Below, in pieces: positions 2,803 to 35,903 of a stretch of DNA of 64,000 bases (positions within the stretch are counted from its first letter, which is position 1; every line of letters begins with the position of its first letter). The DNA is taken from the NCBI RefSeq assembly GCF_027257175.1, contig NZ_JAPFGD010000003.1, positions 270,865-334,864 of the forward strand, in the 5' to 3' direction. The position numbers and the translations under genes are program-made. Below the pieces are notes generated by a model that made no database searches, was not told the origin of the DNA, and was given only the letters and a program-made list of their open reading frames with translations. This stretch comes from Castellaniella sp. S9 (GTDB taxonomy: Bacteria; Pseudomonadota; Gammaproteobacteria; Burkholderiales; Burkholderiaceae_B).

Positions 2803-5121
2803 ATGCGACAAAGCAGAACTTTCACCGTCGACGCGCTGGAGCACCCAGTAGACATCCTCGTGGACGAGTGGGGCATCGCCCACATCCAGGCCCGATCCAA
2901 GCGGGACGTCTTCATTGCGCAAGGCTTCAACGCAGCGCGAGACCGACTCTGGCAAATCGACTTCTGGCGGCGGCGCAACCTGGGGCGCCTCGCCCAGGTC
3001 TTCGGACCGGACTATATCGAACGCGACCGGGCCGCCCGCCTGTTCCTGTATCGCGGAGAGATGCGCAGCGAGTGGCTGGCTTACGGCATGGAAACCAAGC
3101 GCATCGTATCGGCCTTCGTGGCGGGCATCAACGCCTACGTCCAACTGTGCCGCTCCGACCCCCAATACCTGCCCGTCGAATTCAGCGCCCTGGGCTACCT
3201 GCCCGAATTATGGAATATCGACGACATCCCCCGCATGCGCAGCCATGGCGTGGCCGCCAACGTGCGCGAGGAAGTGGCCCGCGCCCTGGCCCTGCGCGAC
3301 CACGGGCCGGAAACCGAGAACCTGCGACGCCAGCGCGAACCCGCACACGAACTGGAAATCCCCGACGGACTGGATCTATCGCTGATTCCAGACGATGTCC
3401 TGCGCGTCTATGACCTGGCAACCGCGGTCCTGCCGGAAATGAACATCCGCCCCCCTGGCTTCGTGCCCGATGGCAGCAACAACTGGGCGCTCGCTGGCAG
3501 CCGCACGGCAAGCGGGCGCCCAATCCTGGCCAACGATCCTCACCGGGCGGCCGCCGCGATCCCCGGGCTGCGCTACATCACCCACCTGACGGCACCCGGG
3601 CTGGACGTGATCGGTGCCGGCGAACCCGGGCTCCCGGGCGTCTCCATCGGGCACAATGGCACGGCTGCGTTCGGCCTCACCACATTCGCCATCGATCAGG
3701 AAGACCTCTACGTCTATCGAACGAACCCAGAGAATCCGCTCGAATACTGGTACCAGGGACGCTGGGAGCCGATGCACGCCGTCCAGGAGAGCATCGAGGT
3801 GCTGGACGGCCCGCCACGGACGGAAACCCTGCTCTACACCCGGCACGGCCCCGTCATTCGCCAAGACTCACGGACGCACAGTGCCTTTGCCCTGCGCGCA
3901 GCTTGGCTGGAGCCCGGCATGGCGCCCTACCTGGCAGCGACACAATCGATGCAGGCGAAGTCATGGGAAGACTTCACCGCCGCCATGAACCGCTGGGGCG
4001 CACCGCCGCTCAACCAGGTGTACGCGGATGCGGCGGGCAACATCGGCTGGAAGCCCTCGGGCCTGATGCCGCGCCGCCCGAACTGGGACGGGACCCTGCC
4101 CGTGCCGGGGGACGGACGCTACGAATGGGACGGCTTTCACGATGGCGACGAGCTGCCCGAGGTCCACAATCCGGCCTCCGGCATGGTGGCCTCGGCGAAT
4201 GAATGCAATCTTCCGGACACCCACCCCCTGCACCGCAAGGTCACCTACGATTGGTTCGCGCCGTACCGCAAGCAGCGCATCGAGGAATACTTTCAAGACG
4301 CCCCCAAAAGCACCGTCGATCACTCCCTGGCGCTGCAAAACGACGTCCTGAGCATTCCCGCCCGCCGCATCCTCGACAGCATCCGCCGGATCGTGCCGGA
4401 CGGCGGCGCCGTCCCCGGTCTGGAGATGCTGCTGGCATGGGATTGCCGCCTGGAGCGGGACTCCGCCGCCGCCGTCCTATTCGAGACCTGGTATCGGAAG
4501 TTTCTGCGCCCGGCACTCAAGCGCATGGCGCTGAGCCGCAGCATCCTCGACGCCGCACGTCTGGAGGATGCACTGGCTGCCACGGCGGTCGCCGAGGACT
4601 TCCTGGCTGACGCGCGTGTGGACATCGCCTTGCTGGAAGGCTGGCCGGACGACCATACGGGCCGGGAATCGCTGGCCGCCATCGTCCGCGACTCGCTGGC
4701 GCGAGCCGTGGCCGCGGTTGCGGAACGGCTGGGGCCAGACATGGGTTCCTGGCGTTGGGGCACGCTCCATGTGTCCTATATGCGGCACCCCATGCGCACC
4801 CGCCTGTTGGCCCACGGCGTCGACGATCAATTGCTGTCGATAGGCCCGCAAAGCCGCGGCGGCAGCGGCGACACCGTTTGCGACACCGCCTACAACGCCG
4901 ATTGGCAGCAAACCTCCGGCTCGACCTTTCGTCTGGTCGTGGACGTCGGCGCATGGGATCGCAGCCGCGCCATGAACGCGCCGGGGCAGTCGGGCGACCC
5001 GCGCTCGGAGCACTATGCGAATCTGTTCGCACCCTGGGCGCGCGGCGAGAGCTTTCCGCTGCTGTACGCATGCACCGAGATCCAGGCACACTGCCATGAA
5101 CGGATCCTGCTGGAACCCTAG
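2803..5121 (+). CDS. Penicillin-acylase-family N-terminal nucleophile amidohydrolase
   Basis: This 772-residue protein belongs to the penicillin amidase (Ntn hydrolase) family, which hydrolyses N-acyl bonds in penicillins, acyl-homoserine lactones or other amides. The precursor is normally cleaved autocatalytically so that a serine starts the beta chain. Here the site is DGSNNWALAG, with Ser225 as the expected nucleophile. The N-terminal block (VDEWGIAHIQA, QGFNAARDRLWQIDFWRR) matches the alpha chain, and HNGTAAFGLT and YADAAGNIGW match the beta chain. The start follows a good AAAGGA site 14 bases after the TRAP permease stop. Unlike classical penicillin G acylase it has no signal peptide, so it probably acts in the cytoplasm on something the TRAP system imports. 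The true substrate is unknown. Confidence 0.88.
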   Translation: MRQSRTFTVDALEHPVDILVDEWGIAHIQARSKRDVFIAQGFNAARDRLWQIDFWRRRNLGRLAQVFGPDYIERDRAARLFLYRGEMRSEWLAYGMETKRIVSAFVAGINAYVQLCRSDPQYLPVEFSALGYLPELWNIDDIPRMRSHGVAANVREEVARALALRDHGPETENLRRQREPAHELEIPDGLDLSLIPDDVLRVYDLATAVLPEMNIRPPGFVPDGSNNWALAGSRTASGRPILANDPHRAAAAIPGLRYITHLTAPGLDVIGAGEPGLPGVSIGHNGTAAFGLTTFAIDQEDLYVYRTNPENPLEYWYQGRWEPMHAVQESIEVLDGPPRTETLLYTRHGPVIRQDSRTHSAFALRAAWLEPGMAPYLAATQSMQAKSWEDFTAAMNRWGAPPLNQVYADAAGNIGWKPSGLMPRRPNWDGTLPVPGDGRYEWDGFHDGDELPEVHNPASGMVASANECNLPDTHPLHRKVTYDWFAPYRKQRIEEYFQDAPKSTVDHSLALQNDVLSIPARRILDSIRRIVPDGGAVPGLEMLLAWDCRLERDSAAAVLFETWYRKFLRPALKRMALSRSILDAARLEDALAATAVAEDFLADARVDIALLEGWPDDHTGRESLAAIVRDSLARAVAAVAERLGPDMGSWRWGTLHVSYMRHPMRTRLLAHGVDDQLLSIGPQSRGGSGDTVCDTAYNADWQQTSGSTFRLVVDVGAWDRSRAMNAPGQSGDPRSEHYANLFAPWARGESFPLLYACTEIQAHCHERILLEP

Positions 5122-5146
5122 CCGGCGCCCACGCTCCGGTTCTGAC

Positions 5147-7402
5147 TCACTCGCGGCTCATCTCGGCCAGGCCGACGGCCTCGCCGTCGAAGGCCTGGTC
5201 GTCGTCCAGCTCGACCTCGACGCGGGACAGCAAGCCCGTGAACGGGAACGGCGCCTCGTACAGGGACACCGCGCAACCCCGGTCGCAGCCGATGTCGCAA
5301 CCGGACCATGAAATGAGGGACTTGAAGTAGCGCGTGCTCTCGATGCTGCCCGCGGGTTCATCATCGACCAGCAGGGTGTAGCGGCTGCGCAAGGCCTCGC
5401 CCTGCGCCCCGCGCTCGAGCCTGTCGACCCGCAGGCCCAGTGTGCTTGCGCTGGACGGCACCCGGTGGTTCGATTGGACGATCTCGTGGCTGCCTCCGAG
5501 GTTGAGGTCGTGAAACAGGTGGCCGTCCTTGAGGTACAGCGCATAGCCCGTCGTGGCGTCGCCATGGGCGATCAGCACGCCCTGCGCGCCCGGTTTCATG
5601 TCCACGAAACAGCGGATGGTATAGCTGCGGCTGCGGACGTCCGGGGCCAAGTCGGTCGGCACGTGGCCCACGCCACGGTGAAAGACGAAGTGCCGGCGTT
5701 CGCCGAGTATGCGCTGGGCATTCTCGGCAAAGCGGGGACCAAACCGGTCGTCCAGCGGCAGGACCTTGTATTGGGCGGCCTGCTCCCACCAGATCGCCTT
5801 GAGGGCGTCGAGCAGGATGGGCTTCTGCGCCGCCAGGTCGCGCACTTCGGAGAAATCGGTGTCGAGGTGATAGAGCTCCCATTGGTCGTCGTCGAACGGC
5901 GTGCCAGGCGGATGGTAGGCCACGGCCTTCCAGCCCGCCAGCCACAAGCCGCGGTGACCAAACATCTCGAAATGCTGGGGCACGTTCTTGGAAGGCGCCT
6001 CGGGATCGGCGAGCGACGCCTTGAAACTCACCCCCTCGATGGGCATCTGCGCGATGCCGTTGACGGACTCGGGGCTCTGTACCCCGATGAGGTCCAGCAG
6101 GGTCGGGTACAGGTCGCAGGCATGGACGAACTGGTGCCTGATCTCCCCTCGGGCCGCGATCCCCCGATCCCATGACATGACGAAGGGATCCCGGATGCCG
6201 CCGCCATGCGTGTTCTGCTTGTAGCGCTTCAGCGGCGTATTGGAGGCCATCGCCCAGCCATGGGGGATGTTCGAGTGGCTGCCCGGTCCACCGATGGTGT
6301 CGATGCGTTCGAGCTTGTCCTGCAGGGACTCCGGCTGGTAGTTGTAGCTGCCCAGGGTATTGACGGCACCCAGCGGTCCGCCCTCCTGGCTTGCGCCATT
6401 GTCGGACATCACGATCACGATCGTATTGTCCAGGGTTCCGGTGGTGCGCAAAAAGTCCACCAGGCGCGCGATCTGCTGGTCGGCATGGTCCAGCATCGCC
6501 GCGTACGCCGCCTGCAGGCGCACGAACAAGCGGCGTTCGTCTCCGGAAAGCTCGTCCCAGGGACGCACCCCGTCGTTGCGCGGCGGCAGCGGCGTGCCCG
6601 GCGGCACGATGCCCAGTTCGATCTGCCGGGCCAGGCGCCGCCGGCGGTCGACGTCCCAGCCGTCGGCGAATACGGATTCGTAGCTGTCGATGAGGGCGCG
6701 CGGCGCCTGGTGCGGCGCATGGCAGGCGCCGAACGCGAGCCATGTGAGCCACGGCGCCGAGGGCTTTTGCGCGATGTGGTCCGCGATGAAGCCGATGGAC
6801 TTGTCCACGAGGTCGGCGGTCAGGTGATAGCCGCCGGCATAGTCGCCCGGGGTCGCGATGTGCGTGTTGTCCTGGACGAGTTCAGGCGAATAATGATCGG
6901 TTTCCGCGTTCAGAAACCCATAGAACCGATCAAATCCACGGCCCAGCGGCCAGCCGTCGAATGGCCCTGTGGATCCGGCCTCATTCATCGGCGTCACGTG
7001 CCACTTGCCGACGAAGTAATTCCGGTAGCCGGCCGGCCGCAGGGCTTCGCCGAGCGTGCAGGCTTCCTTGGCGATCTTGCCCCGATAGCCTGGATATCCG
7101 CTGTCGAAGTTGGCCAGGCAGCCCATGCCCACCGAATGATGGTTGCGGCCCGTCAACAGGGACGCGCGGGTGGTCGAGCACATCGCGGTCGTGTGGAATC
7201 CCGAGTACCGCAGGCCACCGGCGGCCAGCGCATCGATGGCCGGGGTGCGGATCGCCGACCCATAGCATCCGAAGTCCGAAAACCCGACGTCGTCGAACAG
7301 CACCACCAATACATTGGGCGCCCCTCGCGGCGCGGTCGGTTGCGCGGGCCAATGGGGCGTGGACTCCTCGATTGTCCTGCCGATACGCTGGGGATGGGCC
7401 AT
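5147..7402 (-). CDS. Arylsulfatase, formylglycine-dependent (sulfatase family)
   Basis: This 751-residue enzyme should hydrolyse sulfate esters. The N-terminal metal site reads VLFDDVGFSDFG. The active-site segment is MCSTTRASLLTGRNHH, with Cys75 the residue to be oxidised to formylglycine and Arg79 its partner. The usual C-x-P-x-R has Thr in place of Pro. Further metal-site residues are in VMSDNGAS. The length and C-terminal beta-rich part (residues about 560-751) match the long bacterial AtsA-like arylsulfatases. There is no signal peptide, so a cytoplasmic location is likely. It is convergent with the acylase gene, separated by 25 bases. A formylglycine-generating enzyme is not encoded in this window. 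Confidence 0.92.
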   Translation of the reverse strand: MAHPQRIGRTIEESTPHWPAQPTAPRGAPNVLVVLFDDVGFSDFGCYGSAIRTPAIDALAAGGLRYSGFHTTAMCSTTRASLLTGRNHHSVGMGCLANFDSGYPGYRGKIAKEACTLGEALRPAGYRNYFVGKWHVTPMNEAGSTGPFDGWPLGRGFDRFYGFLNAETDHYSPELVQDNTHIATPGDYAGGYHLTADLVDKSIGFIADHIAQKPSAPWLTWLAFGACHAPHQAPRALIDSYESVFADGWDVDRRRRLARQIELGIVPPGTPLPPRNDGVRPWDELSGDERRLFVRLQAAYAAMLDHADQQIARLVDFLRTTGTLDNTIVIVMSDNGASQEGGPLGAVNTLGSYNYQPESLQDKLERIDTIGGPGSHSNIPHGWAMASNTPLKRYKQNTHGGGIRDPFVMSWDRGIAARGEIRHQFVHACDLYPTLLDLIGVQSPESVNGIAQMPIEGVSFKASLADPEAPSKNVPQHFEMFGHRGLWLAGWKAVAYHPPGTPFDDDQWELYHLDTDFSEVRDLAAQKPILLDALKAIWWEQAAQYKVLPLDDRFGPRFAENAQRILGERRHFVFHRGVGHVPTDLAPDVRSRSYTIRCFVDMKPGAQGVLIAHGDATTGYALYLKDGHLFHDLNLGGSHEIVQSNHRVPSSASTLGLRVDRLERGAQGEALRSRYTLLVDDEPAGSIESTRYFKSLISWSGCDIGCDRGCAVSLYEAPFPFTGLLSRVEVELDDDQAFDGEAVGLAEMSRE

Positions 7403-27078: not shown

Positions 27079-28026
27079 CTAGCGTTGCAGAAAATCGCTG
27101 ATGAGCGCCCCAGCTTGCTCGATGGCAGCATCACTATTCAAGCCATTCCTTCCAGAAAAATGGGGTACGACAGCCAGCTTTCGGCCATCGAACTGGCTTA
27201 AATAGATCTTCTTCCTATACCCGTTTATAAGGATTTCATGATATTCAGACTCAAGGTCGTAACCGAATACGGATAAGGCAAAATCTGTCCGGAAGGAGTT
27301 GCCCACACCGATAAACAGCTTGGGCTGATGCTCGTCAACCCAGTTCTTGATGGCCGGCCAACGATATTGTGCGCACCATGCCTGGTATTCAGCCTTACTC
27401 GTCAGCCCCGTTTCCTCCACTGCATCCTCAGGCCAATGAGCAAGGTCAGTGCAGGCGTATGGATACAGATTGCCCTTGAAGTAACCGCTGGAACCCCGTT
27501 CGAACGGCCGACGCTCGAATGCGAATTCACGATATCGCGAGACTGGAATGCCATCAATGGCAGCGAACAATTTAAATGCCTTGCGGTTATACACCCATCC
27601 CAGTTGAGTCTCCACGGAATAGCCATCATCCTCTTGGCCGGAGGGTGATTCAGCGCGTTTCTGATCACGTTTTGACCACCCAGGCTCCAGACCAAAGAGC
27701 CAGATCGTTGGGGATGTCGCATTACCCGCATCGCCGCCTTCGCAGCCATAGAACTTGTCCAGCATCTCAATCAAGTTGGGGTTCATGTGTGCCTGCATTG
27801 AGTGGTTCCTCCTGTACGAACTCGTAAGTTGACGGCCCCCCAAAGGCATCAAAGAGGTGACAATACCGTCCGCTTCGAGCCGCTCCATCAGTGACAAAGC
27901 AATGCTGTAACCGATCCGCAAATGGCGTTGAATCAGCGAGATCGACACGGACTGTCTTTGAATGACGATGGTTTTGGCCTGCTCATACCATTCGTCGGCT
28001 GTATGATCGATCGAAGGTTCTTGCAT
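27079..28026 (-). CDS. FtsK-gamma winged-helix protein with a uracil-DNA-glycosylase-like C-terminal domain
   Basis: This 315-residue protein has an unusual make-up. Residues about 11-66 match the FtsK gamma winged helix (EWYEQAKTIVIQRQSVSISL, then IQRHLRIGYSIALSLMERLEA), the DNA-sequence-reading domain of the FtsK translocase. No translocase motor is present. The rest (about 90-315) contains TIWLFGLEPGWS, GNLYPYACTDLAHW, LFIGVGNSFRTDF and AVVPHFSGRNGLNSD. These resemble in order the G-x-x-P-G loop, core strands and the H-x-S-G-x-N-type loop of the uracil-DNA-glycosylase superfamily. AGGAG precedes the ATG. It is the last gene of a three-gene cassette with a WYL regulator and a tandem AAA+ ATPase. 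The fold assignment of the C-terminus is inference. Confidence 0.7.
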   Translation of the reverse strand: MQEPSIDHTADEWYEQAKTIVIQRQSVSISLIQRHLRIGYSIALSLMERLEADGIVTSLMPLGGRQLTSSYRRNHSMQAHMNPNLIEMLDKFYGCEGGDAGNATSPTIWLFGLEPGWSKRDQKRAESPSGQEDDGYSVETQLGWVYNRKAFKLFAAIDGIPVSRYREFAFERRPFERGSSGYFKGNLYPYACTDLAHWPEDAVEETGLTSKAEYQAWCAQYRWPAIKNWVDEHQPKLFIGVGNSFRTDFALSVFGYDLESEYHEILINGYRKKIYLSQFDGRKLAVVPHFSGRNGLNSDAAIEQAGALISDFLQR

Positions 28027-28082
28027 AGTCCGCTCCTGTTGATGATTGAGGTGCCGGCGGTTATGCCATCTGCCGCCTTAGG

Positions 28083-29039
28083 TTAACATCGCCGCTGGAT
28101 ATCCCAGATTGCATCACCGAATCCGCGCAGCCACCACTCCAGCATGGCGCTATCCACGACGGACGCAGTAATGCCAAGAGAGCCATCCCGATGTCGGACC
28201 ACCTTCTGGTCCACGGATAGCGGCGACTCGATCAGGTGTTGGCCAGCATCGTGAGTGATATGGAAGCTCAAGCGCACTTTCTCACCATCACCAAAACCAA
28301 AACGCCCATCGTCGTCATATTGCTTCAGGTCGAAATCCTTGGGGCGCTCGAACGCAAGCGTCGACATCCGTGCACTGATGATGCGATGCAATGCAAGATT
28401 GCGTTCATTGTCAAAACCACGATAACGACAAACAAGATACAGACGCGGCCCCTGCTGCACGAGTCCCAGCGGCATGACATCGACGGTACTACGCCAGCCG
28501 CTGGCATTCTGGTAGTCCAGATACAACCAGCGATTGGCAAATAGTGCATCGCTGACGACTTCAAAGACCTCCGGCTCGATCCTGGGCGGCAGCAGGGGTT
28601 GACTGGTGGCGACCACTCGCACCTTGCTTGGCCACTCCCGCTCAAGCCGAGCATCACCATCAGGACCAAGATTACGCCTGGCTTGGTGAAAGAAGCCCTC
28701 CATGGACTTCATCAGGCGGGGCGGCAGAAAATGCTTCAAGTGGTCTTCCGCCAACTGGAGCAACAGTGACTCTTGCGGTGTGAGAGTGGGGACCGCCAAG
28801 ACCCGGGCGCGGTCCAGCCACCGATATCCGTAGGGTTTGCTGCGATCATCGCACTCGATCTCGAAATGCTCACTGAGCATCTTCATCTGTCGCTGAATGG
28901 TGCGCAAGTCACGATATATCCCGGCCTCCTCGAGCTGTCGGTGTAGCTCGTTGACCGTCACCTTGCGGCCACGCGGAATACGACGCAACAACTCAACCGC
29001 CAACAGGGCGGTCTCGAGAGTGTCAGAGCGCTTTGCCAT
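28083..29039 (-). CDS. WYL-domain transcriptional regulator
   Basis: This 318-residue protein has an N-terminal winged helix (about residues 8-70: TLETALLAVELLRRIPRGR, YRDLRTIQRQMKMLSEHF). A WYL ligand-binding domain follows at about residues 160-240, with WLYLDYQN, VMPLGLVQQGPRLYLVCRY and NLALHRI. A WCX-like C-terminal part covers about 245-318. WYL regulators sense nucleotides or other negatively charged ligands and often control DNA-repair or phage-defence genes. The ATG is preceded by AAAGGA. It sits between the tandem AAA+ ATPase gene (42 bases) and the FtsK-gamma/UDG-like gene (56 bases), all on the same strand, so it probably regulates this cassette. Confidence 0.88.
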   Translation of the reverse strand: MAKRSDTLETALLAVELLRRIPRGRKVTVNELHRQLEEAGIYRDLRTIQRQMKMLSEHFEIECDDRSKPYGYRWLDRARVLAVPTLTPQESLLLQLAEDHLKHFLPPRLMKSMEGFFHQARRNLGPDGDARLEREWPSKVRVVATSQPLLPPRIEPEVFEVVSDALFANRWLYLDYQNASGWRSTVDVMPLGLVQQGPRLYLVCRYRGFDNERNLALHRIISARMSTLAFERPKDFDLKQYDDDGRFGFGDGEKVRLSFHITHDAGQHLIESPLSVDQKVVRHRDGSLGITASVVDSAMLEWWLRGFGDAIWDIQRRC

Positions 29040-29081
29040 CGCCGAATCCTTTGTTCAATATAGAACCCCTCAGACCCACAA

Positions 29082-31172
29082 TCACAGAAACCCCATGGAT
29101 TGCCGAACCCCCTCTTTCATAGCACATTCGGCTTCCAACGCCGACAACAAGGCGGCTGCGGACTTCAGCGGGCGGAATCGGTGCTGCCGCAGAACAACCG
29201 TGAAATCACCGGGCGTCAGTTGATGCAGGCGCGCGATTCTGGCCTGTTCCGCAGCCATCGGCGGCGCCAAAAAAAGCACCTCGCAAACGCGACACAGTAG
29301 CTTCCACGCTTGGTCGCCACGCAGAAAGTCGAACTTCACTTTCAGATCGAATCGACGCAAGGCGGCCTGATCCAGCCCCTGCATCAGATTTGTCGTGGCG
29401 ATGAACACACCTGAAAAAGACTCGGTCTGGGTCAACACCTCGTTGACCAGGCGGGTCTCCCACCCCAATCGCGCATCGCGCCGATCCATCAGAAAGGTAT
29501 CGATCTCGTCAATCAGCAGGATGGCCCCTTCGGTTTCCGCCTGGCGAAAAGCGCCGGCAATGTTCTTTTCGTTTTCACCCACCCACATTGACATCAGATC
29601 CGAGGCGCGCTTGACCAGCAAGGGGGCGTCAAGCTGCTGCGCCAGCCAACGCCCATACGCCGTCTTGCCGGTGCCGGCCGGCCCGTACAGGCAAAGTCTG
29701 CCCGCACGCGCCGCAATCAATCCCTCCGCAACAACACTCAGATCTGCGTCAGCATGAATGAAGTCCAGATCGTAGGGGCCTGATTGTCTGGCGGGATCAT
29801 GGGACGGCAAGGGCTGGTGGCCCTGAGCCGCCAGCGTATTCGAAATCAGGTACTCGAATGCTGCGCCCGTATTTACCGAACCAAGCTGATCTCGAATCGA
29901 CCGCACAACGGATCCAGCCCTGGTTACGATAGCGGGTGCCAATGTTTCAATGTCGGCGACACGAGACAACGTATCCGCATCGAGCAAATCCGCACAGTTT
30001 TCATGCAGGATCCGCTGGCGCTGTTGCCTGGGAGGCACAGGCACTTCGAACACCAGATCGAAACGGCGGATAAAAGCCGGATCCAGACCGCCGATGGAGT
30101 TGGACAGCCACAAGGTTGGCACGGGATTATCCTCGAGCATGTTGTTGATCCACGCCTTGCGCAACTGCGCCGTGCTTTTGCGGCCAAACGGGCCATCCCC
30201 GTCACTGAATACATCCTCGGCCTCATCAAAAACCAGCATCGCCCGCCTCTGAGAAAAGAAGCTTTGTGCAGCGCGATAAGCACGCAAGCGCTGCTCGCCG
30301 CTGGCTAGTTCTCCGTCAACAGCCTCACTGGCGACTTCGAACAACTCCACGCCCAGCGTCGACGCCAAGGCGCGCGCGAGTTGGGTCTTACCCGTCCCCG
30401 GCGCCCCATGCATGTAAACATTGACGCCGCGCTGCCCACTTGCCATGGCATGGCGCAAGTAAGGGCACAGAATATCCAATGCCAACTGGATGTGCCTGTA
30501 ATTCGACAACTGTAGGCGGCCTGGGCCGACAGCGGACACCATGCCGCGCAGCAGCGCGATCGGATTTGCCTCGGAGGAGACCATCAGATCCGCGAATGTA
30601 TCGGACAGGAGCTTCAGCTTCGTTCGCAAAACGCCTGTGCCCCTATGATCGACCGAGACTAGGCCCGTGCGGGCGAGTACGCTGTTTTCGTCAAGCGCGC
30701 TACGGACAACGGATTCAGGCAGATCCAGAATAATAGACAGTGTTCTGAACACCTTGATCGACGATAGGCCACCCAGTAAGTCAGCTGCGTCATCCAGCAC
30801 GCGCTCGCTGTGCAGCGTCACGGTAAATTCCAGTATCTGGGAATCAGCCTTATCCAACCTCATCAAGCCGGATAGTTTCTGGACATTCCCGCGCAAACGA
30901 GTTGGCAGCACCGCCTTGGCACTTTGCTGTTCCGCCGTGCGATGCAATTGCCGCAATTCAGACAGCACCGCCCCCGCGTCGAAACTGTTGTCAGGTTGCT
31001 CGATCCAGTGCTCAAGACCAATGGATGCCGCCACACCGTCGTCCGCGAAACTTTGCGGCGCCACGAAATTGCGATGTGCGCCCAAAGGAACCAGAATCCG
31101 CAACAGCCACAGGCGCACTATCGCATCAATGTCAGTGATGTGGCGGATATCTCTGATGTAGTGCCGAAGCAT
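29082..31172 (-). CDS. Tandem AAA+ ATPase
   Basis: This 696-residue protein carries two AAA+ modules behind a roughly 230-residue helical N-terminal region that I do not recognise. Module 1 has Walker A GAPGTGKT (256-263), Walker B MLVFDE (312-317) and an arginine finger in RRFD (369-372). Module 2 has Walker A GPAGTGKT (497-504), Walker B ILLIDEID (551-558) and RRFD (606-609). Only module 2 shows a classical aromatic pore loop (MWVGE, 529-533), suggesting it threads a protein substrate. No protease or membrane segment is present, so it may be an unfoldase or remodelling factor. AGGAG precedes the ATG. It is the first gene of the cassette. Confidence 0.87.
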   Translation of the reverse strand: MLRHYIRDIRHITDIDAIVRLWLLRILVPLGAHRNFVAPQSFADDGVAASIGLEHWIEQPDNSFDAGAVLSELRQLHRTAEQQSAKAVLPTRLRGNVQKLSGLMRLDKADSQILEFTVTLHSERVLDDAADLLGGLSSIKVFRTLSIILDLPESVVRSALDENSVLARTGLVSVDHRGTGVLRTKLKLLSDTFADLMVSSEANPIALLRGMVSAVGPGRLQLSNYRHIQLALDILCPYLRHAMASGQRGVNVYMHGAPGTGKTQLARALASTLGVELFEVASEAVDGELASGEQRLRAYRAAQSFFSQRRAMLVFDEAEDVFSDGDGPFGRKSTAQLRKAWINNMLEDNPVPTLWLSNSIGGLDPAFIRRFDLVFEVPVPPRQQRQRILHENCADLLDADTLSRVADIETLAPAIVTRAGSVVRSIRDQLGSVNTGAAFEYLISNTLAAQGHQPLPSHDPARQSGPYDLDFIHADADLSVVAEGLIAARAGRLCLYGPAGTGKTAYGRWLAQQLDAPLLVKRASDLMSMWVGENEKNIAGAFRQAETEGAILLIDEIDTFLMDRRDARLGWETRLVNEVLTQTESFSGVFIATTNLMQGLDQAALRRFDLKVKFDFLRGDQAWKLLCRVCEVLFLAPPMAAEQARIARLHQLTPGDFTVVLRQHRFRPLKSAAALLSALEAECAMKEGVRQSMGFL

Positions 31173-31215: not shown

Positions 31216-31230
31216 CGACATTATGTGTCG
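31216..31230. promoter_or_regulatory. Inverted repeat upstream of the AAA+/WYL/UDG-like cassette (possible operator)
   Basis: The sequence CGACA, five bases, TGTCG forms a perfect 5-bp inverted repeat about 44 bases upstream of the ATPase start codon on the minus strand. A CATAAT element that could serve as a -10 overlaps it on that strand. It is a plausible site for the cassette's WYL regulator. The arms are short, so chance occurrence is possible. Confidence 0.25.
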
Positions 31231-32386: not shown

Positions 32387-32872
32387 TTAAGCGTGCGCGG
32401 TAGCGGCCAGTATGGCCTCCTTGGTTTCCTTCATAGGCGCTTCTAGATCCCGTAGGTCAATGTCTTTCTTTACCACCTTGGGGAACAATTCATCCTCTTC
32501 TTCGGTGATGTGGTGGTTGGTATATTCTCCGAGTACTGTGAAGTGTGCGTCAAACATTTCATCAGTAGGTTTCATCGTTTGAAGTTGGGCTATGAGATCC
32601 TTTGCGCTGGCATGTTCCACCTTCGCTTCGTTGAGCAGGCTACCAAACTCTTTGGGGTCCGCCTCCCGCAGCAAAGGATAAAAATGCTGTTCCTCGATCT
32701 CAGTGTGCGCCGTTAGTGCTGCACAGGCCCGTTGGGCGATCTGCTTCTTTTGAGCGTCATCTTTAGCGGACTCAAATTCCTTGAACAGCTTTTGCGCTTC
32801 GCGATGATCATCGATCAACATGCCCAGCACACTTCGCTGCGCTGTAGGAACGTGCGTTTTATTCATAGCCAT
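32387..32872 (-). CDS. Hemerythrin-like (HHE cation-binding) domain protein
   Basis: This 161-residue helical protein has the pattern of hemerythrin-like di-iron proteins: LIDDHREAQKLFKEFE, HTEIEEQHFYPLL, VEHASAKDLIAQL and YTNHHITEEEDELFP. These supply the spaced His and Glu residues expected to bind two iron atoms. Such proteins sense or bind O2, NO or iron, and the exact ligand is not predictable. GGAG at good spacing supports the first of two close ATGs. Base composition is visibly lower in GC than the surrounding genes. It is divergent from the iron-permease-family gene, sharing a 121-base intergenic region, which suggests a small iron- or stress-related module. Confidence 0.9.
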   Translation of the reverse strand: MAMNKTHVPTAQRSVLGMLIDDHREAQKLFKEFESAKDDAQKKQIAQRACAALTAHTEIEEQHFYPLLREADPKEFGSLLNEAKVEHASAKDLIAQLQTMKPTDEMFDAHFTVLGEYTNHHITEEEDELFPKVVKKDIDLRDLEAPMKETKEAILAATAHA

Positions 32873-32993
32873 TATTCTTCTCCCTGAAAAAGGCGTGCCG
32901 TAACCAGCAGTCTGTTTCAGCAAGCGCCGTACCCGCCTGCGTCGGCATGCAATTTGCCACTATCAGAGGAATTTCATCCACGAGAGAAAAATC

Positions 32994-33407
32994 ATGCAAG
33001 AACAATTTCGAAAATGTGCCGAGATCGCCTCCAAGGCTGCGGGGTCGCCCTGGGGATTCTGTATAGCGGTAACGCTTGTTTTGGCGTGGGCAGTGTCGGG
33101 GCCCATTTTTGAATACTCTGATACGTGGCAGCTGGTCATCAATACGTGCACCACGATAGTGACATTTATGATGGTATTCCTGATCCAGAATGCTCAAAAC
33201 AGAGACTCGCTGACCCTGCAGTTGAAACTGGATGAGTTGCTATGTGCAGTGCGAGGCGCCCGCGTGGGAATGATCGATTTGGATCAACTGACAGAGGCGG
33301 ATCTGGCTACGCTGCGCAGAAATTTTCAACAGCTGGCGCACGCAAAGGGGGGCTCGAAAGAACCAGTCGAAAGAAACGAAAACCCCACGGCAGGCAACGC
33401 GCCGTGA
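32994..33407 (+). CDS. Low-affinity iron permease family membrane protein
   Basis: This 137-residue protein matches the bacterial members of the low-affinity iron permease family (PF04120-like). It has two transmembrane helices, about residues 19-41 and 48-68, followed by the hallmark FLIQNAQNRDSLTLQLKLDEL and an acidic amphipathic helix. The bacterial proteins have not been firmly shown to transport iron. A GAGAG site precedes the ATG. It is divergent from the hemerythrin-like gene, shares its low GC and ends 22 bases before the tRNA-Ser gene. Confidence 0.87.
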   Translation: MQEQFRKCAEIASKAAGSPWGFCIAVTLVLAWAVSGPIFEYSDTWQLVINTCTTIVTFMMVFLIQNAQNRDSLTLQLKLDELLCAVRGARVGMIDLDQLTEADLATLRRNFQQLAHAKGGSKEPVERNENPTAGNAP

Positions 33408-33428
33408 ATCTGCAGCAGCGGGGAATTC

Positions 33429-33519
33429 TGGCGGACAGAGGGGGATTCGAACCCCCGATACGCTATTCACGTATACACGCTTTCCAGGCGTGCGCCTTCA
33501 ACCACTCGGCCACCTGTCC
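33429..33519 (-). tRNA. tRNA-Ser (anticodon GGA)
   Basis: The minus strand gives a class II tRNA. The acceptor arm is GGACAGG/TCTGTCC with discriminator G, the D arm contains GTGGCCGAGTGGTTGAAGG, and the anticodon loop CTGGAAA gives GGA. A long variable arm lies around GTATACGTGAATAGCGTAT, and the T arm contains GGGGGTTCGAATCCCCC. CCA is encoded at 33429-33431. Confidence 0.95.
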
Positions 33520-33628: not shown

Positions 33629-34252
33629 TCAGCCGGGCACACCCCCGGCACCCACCATGCGTTCGACGTAGCGCGCCAGCATGTCGACCTCGATGTTGAC
33701 CGGCGAGCCGACGTCCAGGTGGCGCAAGGTGGTGACCTCGACGGTGTGGGGGATCAGGTTGATGTAGGCCTCGGTGCCTTCCTCCTGGTCGACCACGCGA
33801 TTGACGGTGAGGCTGACGCCGTTGACCGCCAGCGAGCCCTTGTAGGCGAGGTACTTGGACAGGTGCGCGGGGACGATGACCCGCAAGTCGAAGGATTCGC
33901 CCACGGCCTCCATGCAGGTCACCTGCCCCACGCCGTCGACGTGGCCCGACACCAGGTGGCCGTCCAGGGAATCGCCCAGGCGCATCGCGTGTTCGAGGTT
34001 GACCTCGCCCGGGCGGTCCAGGCCGCAGGTGCGATCCAGGCTCTCGCGCGAGATGTCGACCTCGAAGGCGCCCTCGTGCAATGCCACCACCGTCATGCAG
34101 GCGCCCTGGACGGCGATCGAATCCCCCAGCCGTGTGCGGTCCAGCGGCAGGCCGCCGGCCTCGATGCGGGCGCGCACGCCGGCCTCGGGCACCTCGCCCA
34201 GCGGGCGCACCTCGGTAATGCGGCCCACGGCCGCCACAATTCCAGTAAACAT
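33629..34252 (-). CDS. ribE: Riboflavin synthase (alpha subunit)
   Basis: This 207-residue enzyme dismutates two 6,7-dimethyl-8-ribityllumazine molecules to riboflavin. It begins with the invariant MFTGIV and has the two internally repeated lumazine-binding barrels, about residues 1-97 and 98-195. Matching signatures are AVQGACMTV in the first and AVNGVSLTVN in the second. It is the last gene of the glyA-nrdR-ribD-ribE run, 42 bases after ribD. The genes ribBA and ribH, often next, are absent; tRNA-Ser follows instead. Confidence 0.96.
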   Translation of the reverse strand: MFTGIVAAVGRITEVRPLGEVPEAGVRARIEAGGLPLDRTRLGDSIAVQGACMTVVALHEGAFEVDISRESLDRTCGLDRPGEVNLEHAMRLGDSLDGHLVSGHVDGVGQVTCMEAVGESFDLRVIVPAHLSKYLAYKGSLAVNGVSLTVNRVVDQEEGTEAYINLIPHTVEVTTLRHLDVGSPVNIEVDMLARYVERMVGAGGVPG

Positions 34253-34294
34253 GGTGATTCCGTCAAAAGAATGAATGGCGGACGCGCCGGGCCC

Positions 34295-35428
34295 TCAGGC
34301 CTCGAGCACCGCGCACAATGCCTGCCAACGCGCCTGATCGCGCAAGCGCAGGCGCATGTCCCGACCCAACTGTACCGCATCCACGAACTCGTAGCGGGGC
34401 GCCTCGGACAAGTCGTCGAACGCACCGGAATTCCCCGCCAGGCCATGCCCGGCCCCCAGCACGCGCGGCGCCACGTAGGCGATCCATTCGTCCACCCAGC
34501 CGCCGGCCACCAGCGCGTCGTTGAGGCGTGCGCCCGCCTCGACGTGCACCTCGTTGATCTCGTGTGCGCCCAGCCAGTCCATGAGGGCGCCGAGGTCCAG
34601 TCCGCCGGCGGCGTCCTGCGGCAGGCGGATCACGCGCGCGTTGCGCCGGGACAGCCGATCGATCTTGGCCGCGTCCGGGCGCGCCGTGAAGATCCACACG
34701 GGGTCGCCGTTGAACAGGTTGGCATCCTCGGCGATCCGGAAGTCCGTATCCAGGACCGCACGCACCGGCTGCCGGGTGGTGGCGACCACGCGTACATTCA
34801 TGATCGGGTTGTCGGCCATCACGGTGCCGATGCCGGTCAGGATCAGGCAGGCGCGGGCGCGCCAGCGGTGCCCGTCGGCACGCGCCTCCTCGCCGGTGAT
34901 CCACTGGGACCAGCCGTTGGGCAGGGCCGTGCGGCCATCCAGCGATCCGGCGGTCTTGAGCCACACCCAGGGTCGGCCCCGCGTCATGCGGGCGACGAAA
35001 CCCGGGTTGAGCGCCAGCGCATCGGATGCGCACAGGCCCATGTCGACCTGGATGCCCGCCCGCCGCAGGCGGGCCGCCCCCTGACCGGCGACCTTGGGGT
35101 TGGGGTCGCCCATCGCGGCGACCACGCGCACGATGCCGGCCGCCACGAGGGCATCCGCGCAAGGCGGCGTACGGCCGAAATGGCTGCAGGGCTCGAGCGT
35201 GACGTAAGCGGTGGCGCCGCGGACGTCGATCCCCTGGCTGGCCGCCTCGTGCAAGGCATCGACCTCGGCATGGCGTCCGCCGGCGTGCCGGGTATAGCCC
35301 TCGGCCAGCCAGCGGCCGTCGCGCACCAGCACGCAGCCCACGCGCGGATTGGGGGTGCTGATGTCCAGCGAGCCCTCGGCCACGGCCAGGGCGCGGCGCA
35401 TCCAACGATGATCCTGGGGCGAAAACAC
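34295..35428 (-). CDS. ribD: Bifunctional diaminohydroxyphosphoribosylaminopyrimidine deaminase/5-amino-6-(5-phosphoribosylamino)uracil reductase
   Basis: This 377-residue enzyme catalyses the second and third steps of riboflavin synthesis. The N-terminal deaminase (about residues 1-145) has the zinc site HAEVDAL and PCSHFGRTPPC. The C-terminal reductase (about 146-370) has RPWVWLKTAGSLDGR and an NADPH-binding core. The GTG at 35428 is chosen because GAGG lies five bases upstream and the product then starts at the conserved SPQDHRWMRRALAVA. Longer frames would run inside nrdR. It starts seven bases after the nrdR stop. Confidence 0.95.
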   Translation of the reverse strand: MFSPQDHRWMRRALAVAEGSLDISTPNPRVGCVLVRDGRWLAEGYTRHAGGRHAEVDALHEAASQGIDVRGATAYVTLEPCSHFGRTPPCADALVAAGIVRVVAAMGDPNPKVAGQGAARLRRAGIQVDMGLCASDALALNPGFVARMTRGRPWVWLKTAGSLDGRTALPNGWSQWITGEEARADGHRWRARACLILTGIGTVMADNPIMNVRVVATTRQPVRAVLDTDFRIAEDANLFNGDPVWIFTARPDAAKIDRLSRRNARVIRLPQDAAGGLDLGALMDWLGAHEINEVHVEAGARLNDALVAGGWVDEWIAYVAPRVLGAGHGLAGNSGAFDDLSEAPRYEFVDAVQLGRDMRLRLRDQARWQALCAVLEA

Positions 35429-35435
35429 GGCGGCC

Positions 35436-35903
35436 TCAGTCTTCGGGGTCCGGCGAGGACTGGAACTCGTCGATGGTCCGCACGAATTCCTGGATGTCCT
35501 CGAAACTGCGGTAGACCGAGGCAAAGCGCACGTAGGCCACTTGGTCGAGCTGGCGCAGTTCCGCCATGACCAGTTCGCCGATGTGGCCCGAGGGCACCTC
35601 GCGGCGTCCGCTGGCCATCAGCCGATCCTGGATGCGGGCGACCGCGGCATCGACTTCGGCCGTGCTGACCGGCCGCTTGCGCAGGGCCAGCCCCATGCTG
35701 GCGCGCAGCTTGGACACATCGAACTCGCTGCGGGTGCCGTTGCGCTTGACCACCGCCGGCATCATGAGGTCGACGCGTTCGTAGGTGGTGAACCGCCGGT
35801 CACAGGCCGTGCAGCGGCGCCGGCGCCTGATCGTGTCGCCTTCCTCGGAGACCCGCGAGTCGATGACCTGCGTGTCGAAGCTGCTGCAGAACGGACACTT
35901 CAT
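35436..35903 (-). CDS. nrdR: Transcriptional repressor NrdR
   Basis: This 155-residue protein represses ribonucleotide reductase genes by binding NrdR boxes when its ATP-cone is loaded with dATP. The N-terminal zinc ribbon has CPFC and CTAC pairs and the basic stretch RRRRRC (residues about 2-45). The ATP-cone (about 49-139) contains [17 protein letters not shown]. The ATG directly before KCPFC is the conserved start. Likely targets in this window are the two NrdR boxes before nrdAB at 54.5 kb. It lies between glyA and ribD, as in many betaproteobacteria. Confidence 0.97.

Follow-up and report, generated by a model that had tools for sequence, protein, structure and literature searches.

What do three adjacent genes of Castellaniella sp. 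S9 do together, encoding as they do a tandem AAA+ ATPase, a WYL-domain regulator and a protein, here called P3, with an FtsK-gamma winged helix and a predicted uracil-DNA glycosylase (UDG)-like fold? The genes lie on the minus strand of a 64,000-nucleotide stretch of DNA (contig NZ_JAPFGD010000003.1, positions 270,865 to 334,864), hereafter the window, whose first letter is position 1. Our favoured reading, which we hold tentatively, is that the trio is a laterally acquired defence operon of the DriD type, triggered by single-stranded DNA (ssDNA); the ssDNA sensing, the catalysis and the defence role are what we infer. The features concerned are as follows.

31216..31230, no strand assigned: putative operator for the WYL regulator (an inverted repeat, CGAC-N7-GTCG), 43 bases upstream of the AAA ATG
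29082..31172, minus: gene 1, AAA+ ATPase, open reading frame (ORF) of 696 amino acids
30384..30407, minus: Walker A of AAA domain 1, GAPGTGKT, residues 256-263
29661..29684, minus: Walker A of AAA domain 2, GPAGTGKT, residues 497-504
28083..29039, minus: gene 2, WYL regulator, ORF of 318 amino acids
27079..28026, minus: gene 3 (P3), ORF of 315 amino acids
27850..27999, minus: FtsK_gamma domain of P3, residues 10-59 (PF09397, 1.1e-16)
27082..27777, minus: UDG-like domain of P3, residues 84-315 (from alignment, DSSP of the model and structure matches)
27679..27693, minus: motif-A-like GLEPG of P3, residues 112-116, with Glu114 invariant in 22/22 aligned relatives

The regulator and its candidate operator

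The three ORFs are separated by gaps of 42 bases (genes 1 and 2) and 56 bases (genes 2 and 3), and the ATGs of genes 1, 2 and 3 are preceded by AGGAG, AAGGA and AGGAG, respectively, as ribosome-binding sites. A first-pass annotation, made from the letters alone, had described this same-strand arrangement and the domain make-up of the products; both were recovered, Pfam returning two AAA domains, WYL plus WCX, and FtsK_gamma.

The gene 2 protein is composed of a winged helix-turn-helix (wHTH), a WYL domain (PF13280, residues 157-225) and a WCX domain (PF25583, residues 254-311), the architecture of DriD and PafBC. Sequence searches of the PDB placed its WYL family nearest to chains that include PafBC and 8tp8, which we take to be DriD (its PDB record names a DeoR-family regulator). 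The gene 2 profile also matched BrxR (7qfz, E 0.001) and CapW (E 0.0034), far more weakly than the DriD-type chains, and membership of the BrxR family was therefore rejected. By sequence, the regulator is closer to DriD/PafBC-type ssDNA sensors than to BrxR. According to the literature, DriD has an ssDNA-binding WYL domain and the operator ATACGAC(N7)GTCGTAT (PMC12340889), DriD and PafBC are DNA-damage regulators (PMC12340889, PMC11804915), and WYL regulators control DNA-damage or defence loci (PMC12340889, PMC9122601), as the first-pass annotation had stated.

The core of the published DriD operator, CGAC-N7-GTCG, is present at the AAA promoter of the window, where the repeat finder had passed over it because its 5-base arms fall under the finder's minimum. 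In a span reaching from 250 bases upstream of the start codon to 90 bases downstream of it, 15/40 AAA relatives of full length carry the exact repeat, compared with 1/40 at each of the control spacings 0, 10 and 14 and 0/40 at the other twelve control spacings between 0 and 15. Genes for DUF2779 proteins also carry it (5/16, versus 31/806 other genes), and alignment of the sites gives approximately TGCGACA-N5-TGTCGCA. The form CGACA-N5-TGTCG is scarce in the 3.8 Mb genome of the strain itself, since its three copies are fewer than the five of a reversed control. The other two copies lie at C22:247410-247424 and C30:8640-8654, the latter within a reading frame resembling quinone reductase. An intrinsic promoter and terminator scan yielded nothing that exceeded shuffled sequence.

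At an Extensimonas locus (L057), the AAA and P3 genes are divergent, with one repeat 47 bases upstream of the AAA ATG and a second 84 bases upstream of the P3 ATG; no other observation points as directly to P3 being able to join the same regulon. Separately, one genome holds two near-identical loci with AAA, DUF2779 and WYL genes (L150 and L174), and operators stand there before both AAA and DUF2779.

The ATPase and the two-domain P3 protein

The gene 1 protein has two PF00004 (AAA) domains, each followed by an RRFD motif (residues 369 and 606), and both RRFD motifs and both Walker A motifs are intact. It aligns over residues 14-690 with phrog_10401 (394 bits). Its structure model (predicted local distance difference test (pLDDT) 73.3, predicted template modelling score (pTM) 0.42) has the tandem AAA fold and matches p97 N-D1 and Rix7 best; the N-terminal region (residues ~1-220) has no assigned fold and was barely probed by the fold search. 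As modelled, gene 1 looks like a tandem p97/Cdc48/Rix7-like double ring of the unfoldase type, in keeping with the unfoldase-like double AAA+ ATPase proposed earlier.

P3 begins with a gamma domain whose recognition helix reads GYSIALSLME in place of GYNRAAR..E. In Escherichia coli FtsK, reading of the FtsK orienting polar sequences (KOPS) is determined by N1296, R1300 and E1303 (PMC2533119, PMC2680272). A HMMER alignment to the E. coli chain gives Ser, Ser and Glu at these positions in the window P3. The P3 of L046 has Asn, Thr and Gln, and that of L050 has Gln, Ile and Arg; R1300 is thus lost in 3/3 gamma-P3 fusions. Asn, Arg and Glu are kept in the strain's own FtsK and in 27/27 other FtsK loci. 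With two of the three published residues replaced in the window, KOPS reading by P3 was rejected as improbable. Because KOPS residues are lost in P3 and kept in FtsK, the P3 gamma domain is probably a re-tasked DNA-binding head. The domain has been re-used elsewhere, being listed in a phage small terminase.

For the remainder of P3, the AlphaFold2 model (mean pLDDT 87.5, pTM 0.75) and structure comparison indicate an alpha/beta fold of the UDG kind, and the first suggestion, that the protein binds DNA and has a fold like that of a glycosylase, agrees with the model. The UDG-family structural matches have high root-mean-square deviations because the entire two-domain chain was compared. Motif names and catalytic positions are used here as in classical UDGs. 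A strand followed by GLEPG (112-116), a strand followed by Asn186, an RPKLFIGVG-type strand (237-241) and a strand followed by PHFSG (288-292) succeed one another along the domain. Glu114 and Asn186 both follow strands in the model, and neither they nor their flanking residues vary among 22 sequences drawn from two clades; an hhalign comparison of P3 with UDG scored above 60/60 shuffles. Pfam had no match for this C-terminal part, no PADLOC model matched P3, and NCBIfam returned FtsK and a weak chance match, with no glycosylase. In sum, the C-terminal part models as a UDG-superfamily-like fold, with base excision as its predicted activity.

Partners, spread and genomic setting

Relatives of the ATPase occur in 35/399 genomes of the order (E 1e-60) and in 4/61 relatives searched (1e-20). 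We compared 42 AAA-selected loci, halved at 720 bits in a split chosen after the data had been seen. Among the 21 closest relatives, 15 loci have WYL, 9 have DUF2779, 17 have either and 10 have the exact operator; among the 21 more distant ones, the counts are 4, 3, 4 and 2. The set omits the short-contig loci L004, L073, L076, L098 and L177, in which no AAA frame was found. Plasmid AAA-WYL pairs are accompanied by DUF2779 (L005, L006), by phospholipase D (PLD)-like and SNF2 genes (L008) or by BREX-type genes and Sir2 (L010); DUF2779 itself has a weak PADLOC match to Cas4 (4e-6). AAA plus WYL is thus a recurrent core, and P3 is one of several partners, of which DUF2779 is the commonest counted. 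Co-occurrence, which the first-pass annotation had proposed as a check, therefore holds for AAA and WYL, but P3 is mostly found apart from AAA. An unannotated sequence deposited as 'Bacteriophage sp.' (MT835507.1, L014) carries paired AAA (41%) and WYL (29%) genes together with the operator; by eye, it resembles a bacterial defence island, with type I restriction-like and Sir2-like genes, more than a phage.

The P3 domain was found in at least 3/399 genomes of the order among the matches listed, where copies weaker than ~3e-10 could escape, and in 0/368 other genomes of the class. Single-protein P3 scans of genome and viral contigs found no relative, whereas alignment-based scans did find relatives. 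At 24 P3 genome loci, an AAA relative is present in 3 and WYL plus DUF2779 relatives in 4. Even density would predict 0.0097 AAA loci (P 1.5e-7), a figure that supposes evenly spread AAA genes in genomes averaging 3.6 Mb and takes no account of the clustering of defence genes; the 24 loci are also not independent (L048/L049 share one genome; L054/L056 and L062/L063 are near-copies). These associations, together with the operator before P3 in L057, speak against mere accident in the meeting of AAA and P3. The P3 loci with AAA, WYL and DUF2779 belong to a clade distinct from that of the window.

Several P3 loci have defence-type or modified-DNA genes close by. GmrSD-like genes follow in L053 and L057, and GmrSD cleaves DNA with glucosylated 5-hydroxymethylcytosine (PMC13160076). 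In a Herminiimonas metagenome-assembled genome (L050), ~2 kb separate the gamma-P3 gene from a three-gene operon (2928-5664) whose genes overlap and which encodes a thymidylate-synthase-like protein (phrog_5131, 8.5e-48), a PF18746 aGPT-Pplase3 protein (3e-93), from a family named for putrescinyl-thymine metabolism, and a 266-amino-acid protein with GLNPSNLE, which resembles the N-P-S-x-x-E of Brig3; N50 and E55, around N-P-S, are needed by Brig3 (PMC11078745, PMC13160076). Two viral contigs, whose terminases belong to different PHROG families (phrog_9 and phrog_15), carry P3 genes that are nearly identical and lie on the other strand from the terminase. A 234-amino-acid gene (L069:8768-9472) begins 24 bases after a P3 relative, and its FVLLNPGSA looks by eye like a UDG motif A; its product had no Pfam, PADLOC or PHROG match.

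A broader scan of P3 neighbours took in 103 proteins, each with at least 180 amino acids and within 5 kb, at 16 of the 24 genome loci, omitting L046, L051, L053, L056, L057, L061, L063 and L069, which are short or near-duplicate or have AAA or WYL already known. At 1e-10, one or more of the 103 proteins had a match in each of 82 PADLOC families, not resolved by locus, with RmrA, a Pycsar cyclase and a type II methylase among the 25 best of the 82. Ten neighbours were followed individually, and two had PADLOC matches, a DinG-like and a DEAD-type helicase.

In the window, the GC content of genes 1, 2 and 3 is 0.582, 0.571 and 0.517. As the first-pass annotation had noted, this is lower than in five neighbours (0.67-0.71; the glutathione-reductase-like, phosphoenolpyruvate (PEP) mutase and quinone reductase genes and two genes at 33629-35524), but low GC is not peculiar to the trio, because the hemerythrin (0.503, measured at 32387-32869) and iron-permease (0.531) genes just beyond it are as low. 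These two genes adjoin a tRNA-Ser gene (33429-33519), and the interval 32387-33519 may be a second acquired stretch. The description of the trio as lying between core genes holds in part: 4/9 congeners have a PEP mutase copy of 73-76% identity, whereas none of the nine has a quinone reductase copy that exceeds 43% identity. No further window gene was matched in the four congener regions around the PEP mutase copy (12.7-19.9 kb), and with that single match an empty insertion site could not be demonstrated. The trio is probably an acquired operon.

Rival readings and known systems

Under the defence reading, the WYL protein, by analogy with DriD and PafBC, would bind ssDNA arising from phage replication or DNA damage and would then bind CGAC-N7-GTCG, switching the operon on. 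The gamma-type winged helix, probably reading something besides KOPS, would bring P3 to DNA, where P3 may flip out and excise a base, which is more likely to be modified than not; the invading DNA would then be left with abasic sites, as happens with Brig1 and Brig3. The AAA+ ring could strip or unfold proteins on P3-targeted DNA or at stalled forks. A more specific version, in which a DriD-type switch, a KOPS-blind gamma domain that brings a UDG-fold enzyme with Glu in motif A to incoming DNA, itself probably base-modified, and a p97-like ring that clears this DNA of proteins form a new glycosylase immunity, with CGAC-N7-GTCG marking an AAA/DUF2779/WYL defence regulon, seems to us doubtful.

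Several results weigh against a joint defence role. No known defence gene was identified inside the trio. The exact repeat stands before 1/24 WYL genes and upstream of 1/27 P3 genes. A PDB sequence search with P3 gave no match up to E 10, and the hhalign comparison with UDG has a probability of 6% (E 0.006, 60 columns). His289 of motif C follows a strand in the window P3, but most members of the other clade (clade B) have Phe there; since this residue is not conserved, P3 may have an altered catalysis or none. By Pfam, a large number of P3 neighbours are housekeeping proteins (glutathione S-transferase, UbiE, IMP dehydrogenase, ribonucleotide reductase), and 8/10 of those followed individually had no PADLOC match at 1e-10. 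Among the loci compared, the order AAA-WYL-P3 was seen in the window only, and 21/24 P3 genome loci are without an AAA relative in the stretch examined, some of these stretches being ended by contig ends. The trio as a conserved cassette, as first envisaged, was accordingly rejected.

This last pair of results is what a cargo gene would produce, that is, an independent P3 set behind an AAA-WYL pair with no joint function, and the many other partners of such pairs and the clustering of defence genes without shared function fit it as well. We nevertheless consider it somewhat unlikely: the 3/24 and 4/24 associations come from a clade to which the window P3 does not belong, P3 in L057 has its own operator, and the window P3 is on the same strand after a gap of 56 bases. 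Quite unlikely, in our judgement, is a host DNA-damage response, in which an SOS-independent, DriD-type operon would have P3 remove damaged bases and the AAA+ protein clear protein-DNA blocks. It draws on the DNA-damage role of DriD and PafBC and on the P3 fold being that of base-excision repair enzymes, yet it sits poorly with the patchy spread of AAA and P3, with the plasmid, phage-contig and defence-type neighbourhoods and with the two PF03167 UDGs already encoded in the genome. A role for P3 as a regulator that binds DNA, or in counter-defence, with a UDG-like fold that is catalytically dead, is highly improbable, for although His289 varies and P3 genes occur on phage contigs, the invariance of Glu114, Asn186 and their flanks across both clades is unlike a decayed active site.

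If the defence reading is true, a DriD-type damage sensor is tied to defence loci through a shared and simply testable operator, which suggests how WYL-controlled defence genes detect the start of infection; related loci could be sought with the operator as a sequence tag, and P3 would add to Brig1-3 another glycosylase family, one with a DNA-targeting head that those lack. No named system of this composition was found in PADLOC, NCBIfam or the literature searched, as the first-pass annotation had supposed; that literature, which covered few subscription papers, contained nothing pairing DUF2779 with WYL and no defence locus uniting a UDG-superfamily protein, WYL and AAA.

Among known systems, IetAS shares AAA domain homology with gene 1 (PADLOC IetA, 124 bits), but gene 1 has two AAA domains and the trio has no IetS protease partner; membership was rejected, with an NCBIfam score of 116 against a cut-off of 510 bits and no protease match for the partner genes. 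BrxR and CapW are likewise WYL regulators beside defence-type genes (PMC9122601), set apart by their much weaker profile match. With DriD and PafBC, gene 2 shares the wHTH-WYL-WCX order, sequence matches to solved chains and the operator core, while differing in being encoded within a small acquired operon. P3 differs from FtsK, the source of its gamma domain type, in having no motor and in the two Ser replacements. Brig1 and Brig3 resemble P3 in the predicted UDG-superfamily fold, the S. tokodaii UDG being among the best matches of both models, and in the defence-type or modified-DNA genes nearby (PMC11078745, PMC13160076). As far as their published descriptions go, P3 is distinguished from them by its N-terminal FtsK-gamma domain in the window, by Glu at the motif-A position where Brig3 has Asn50, and by its occurrence in Pseudomonadota loci with links to AAA-WYL loci.
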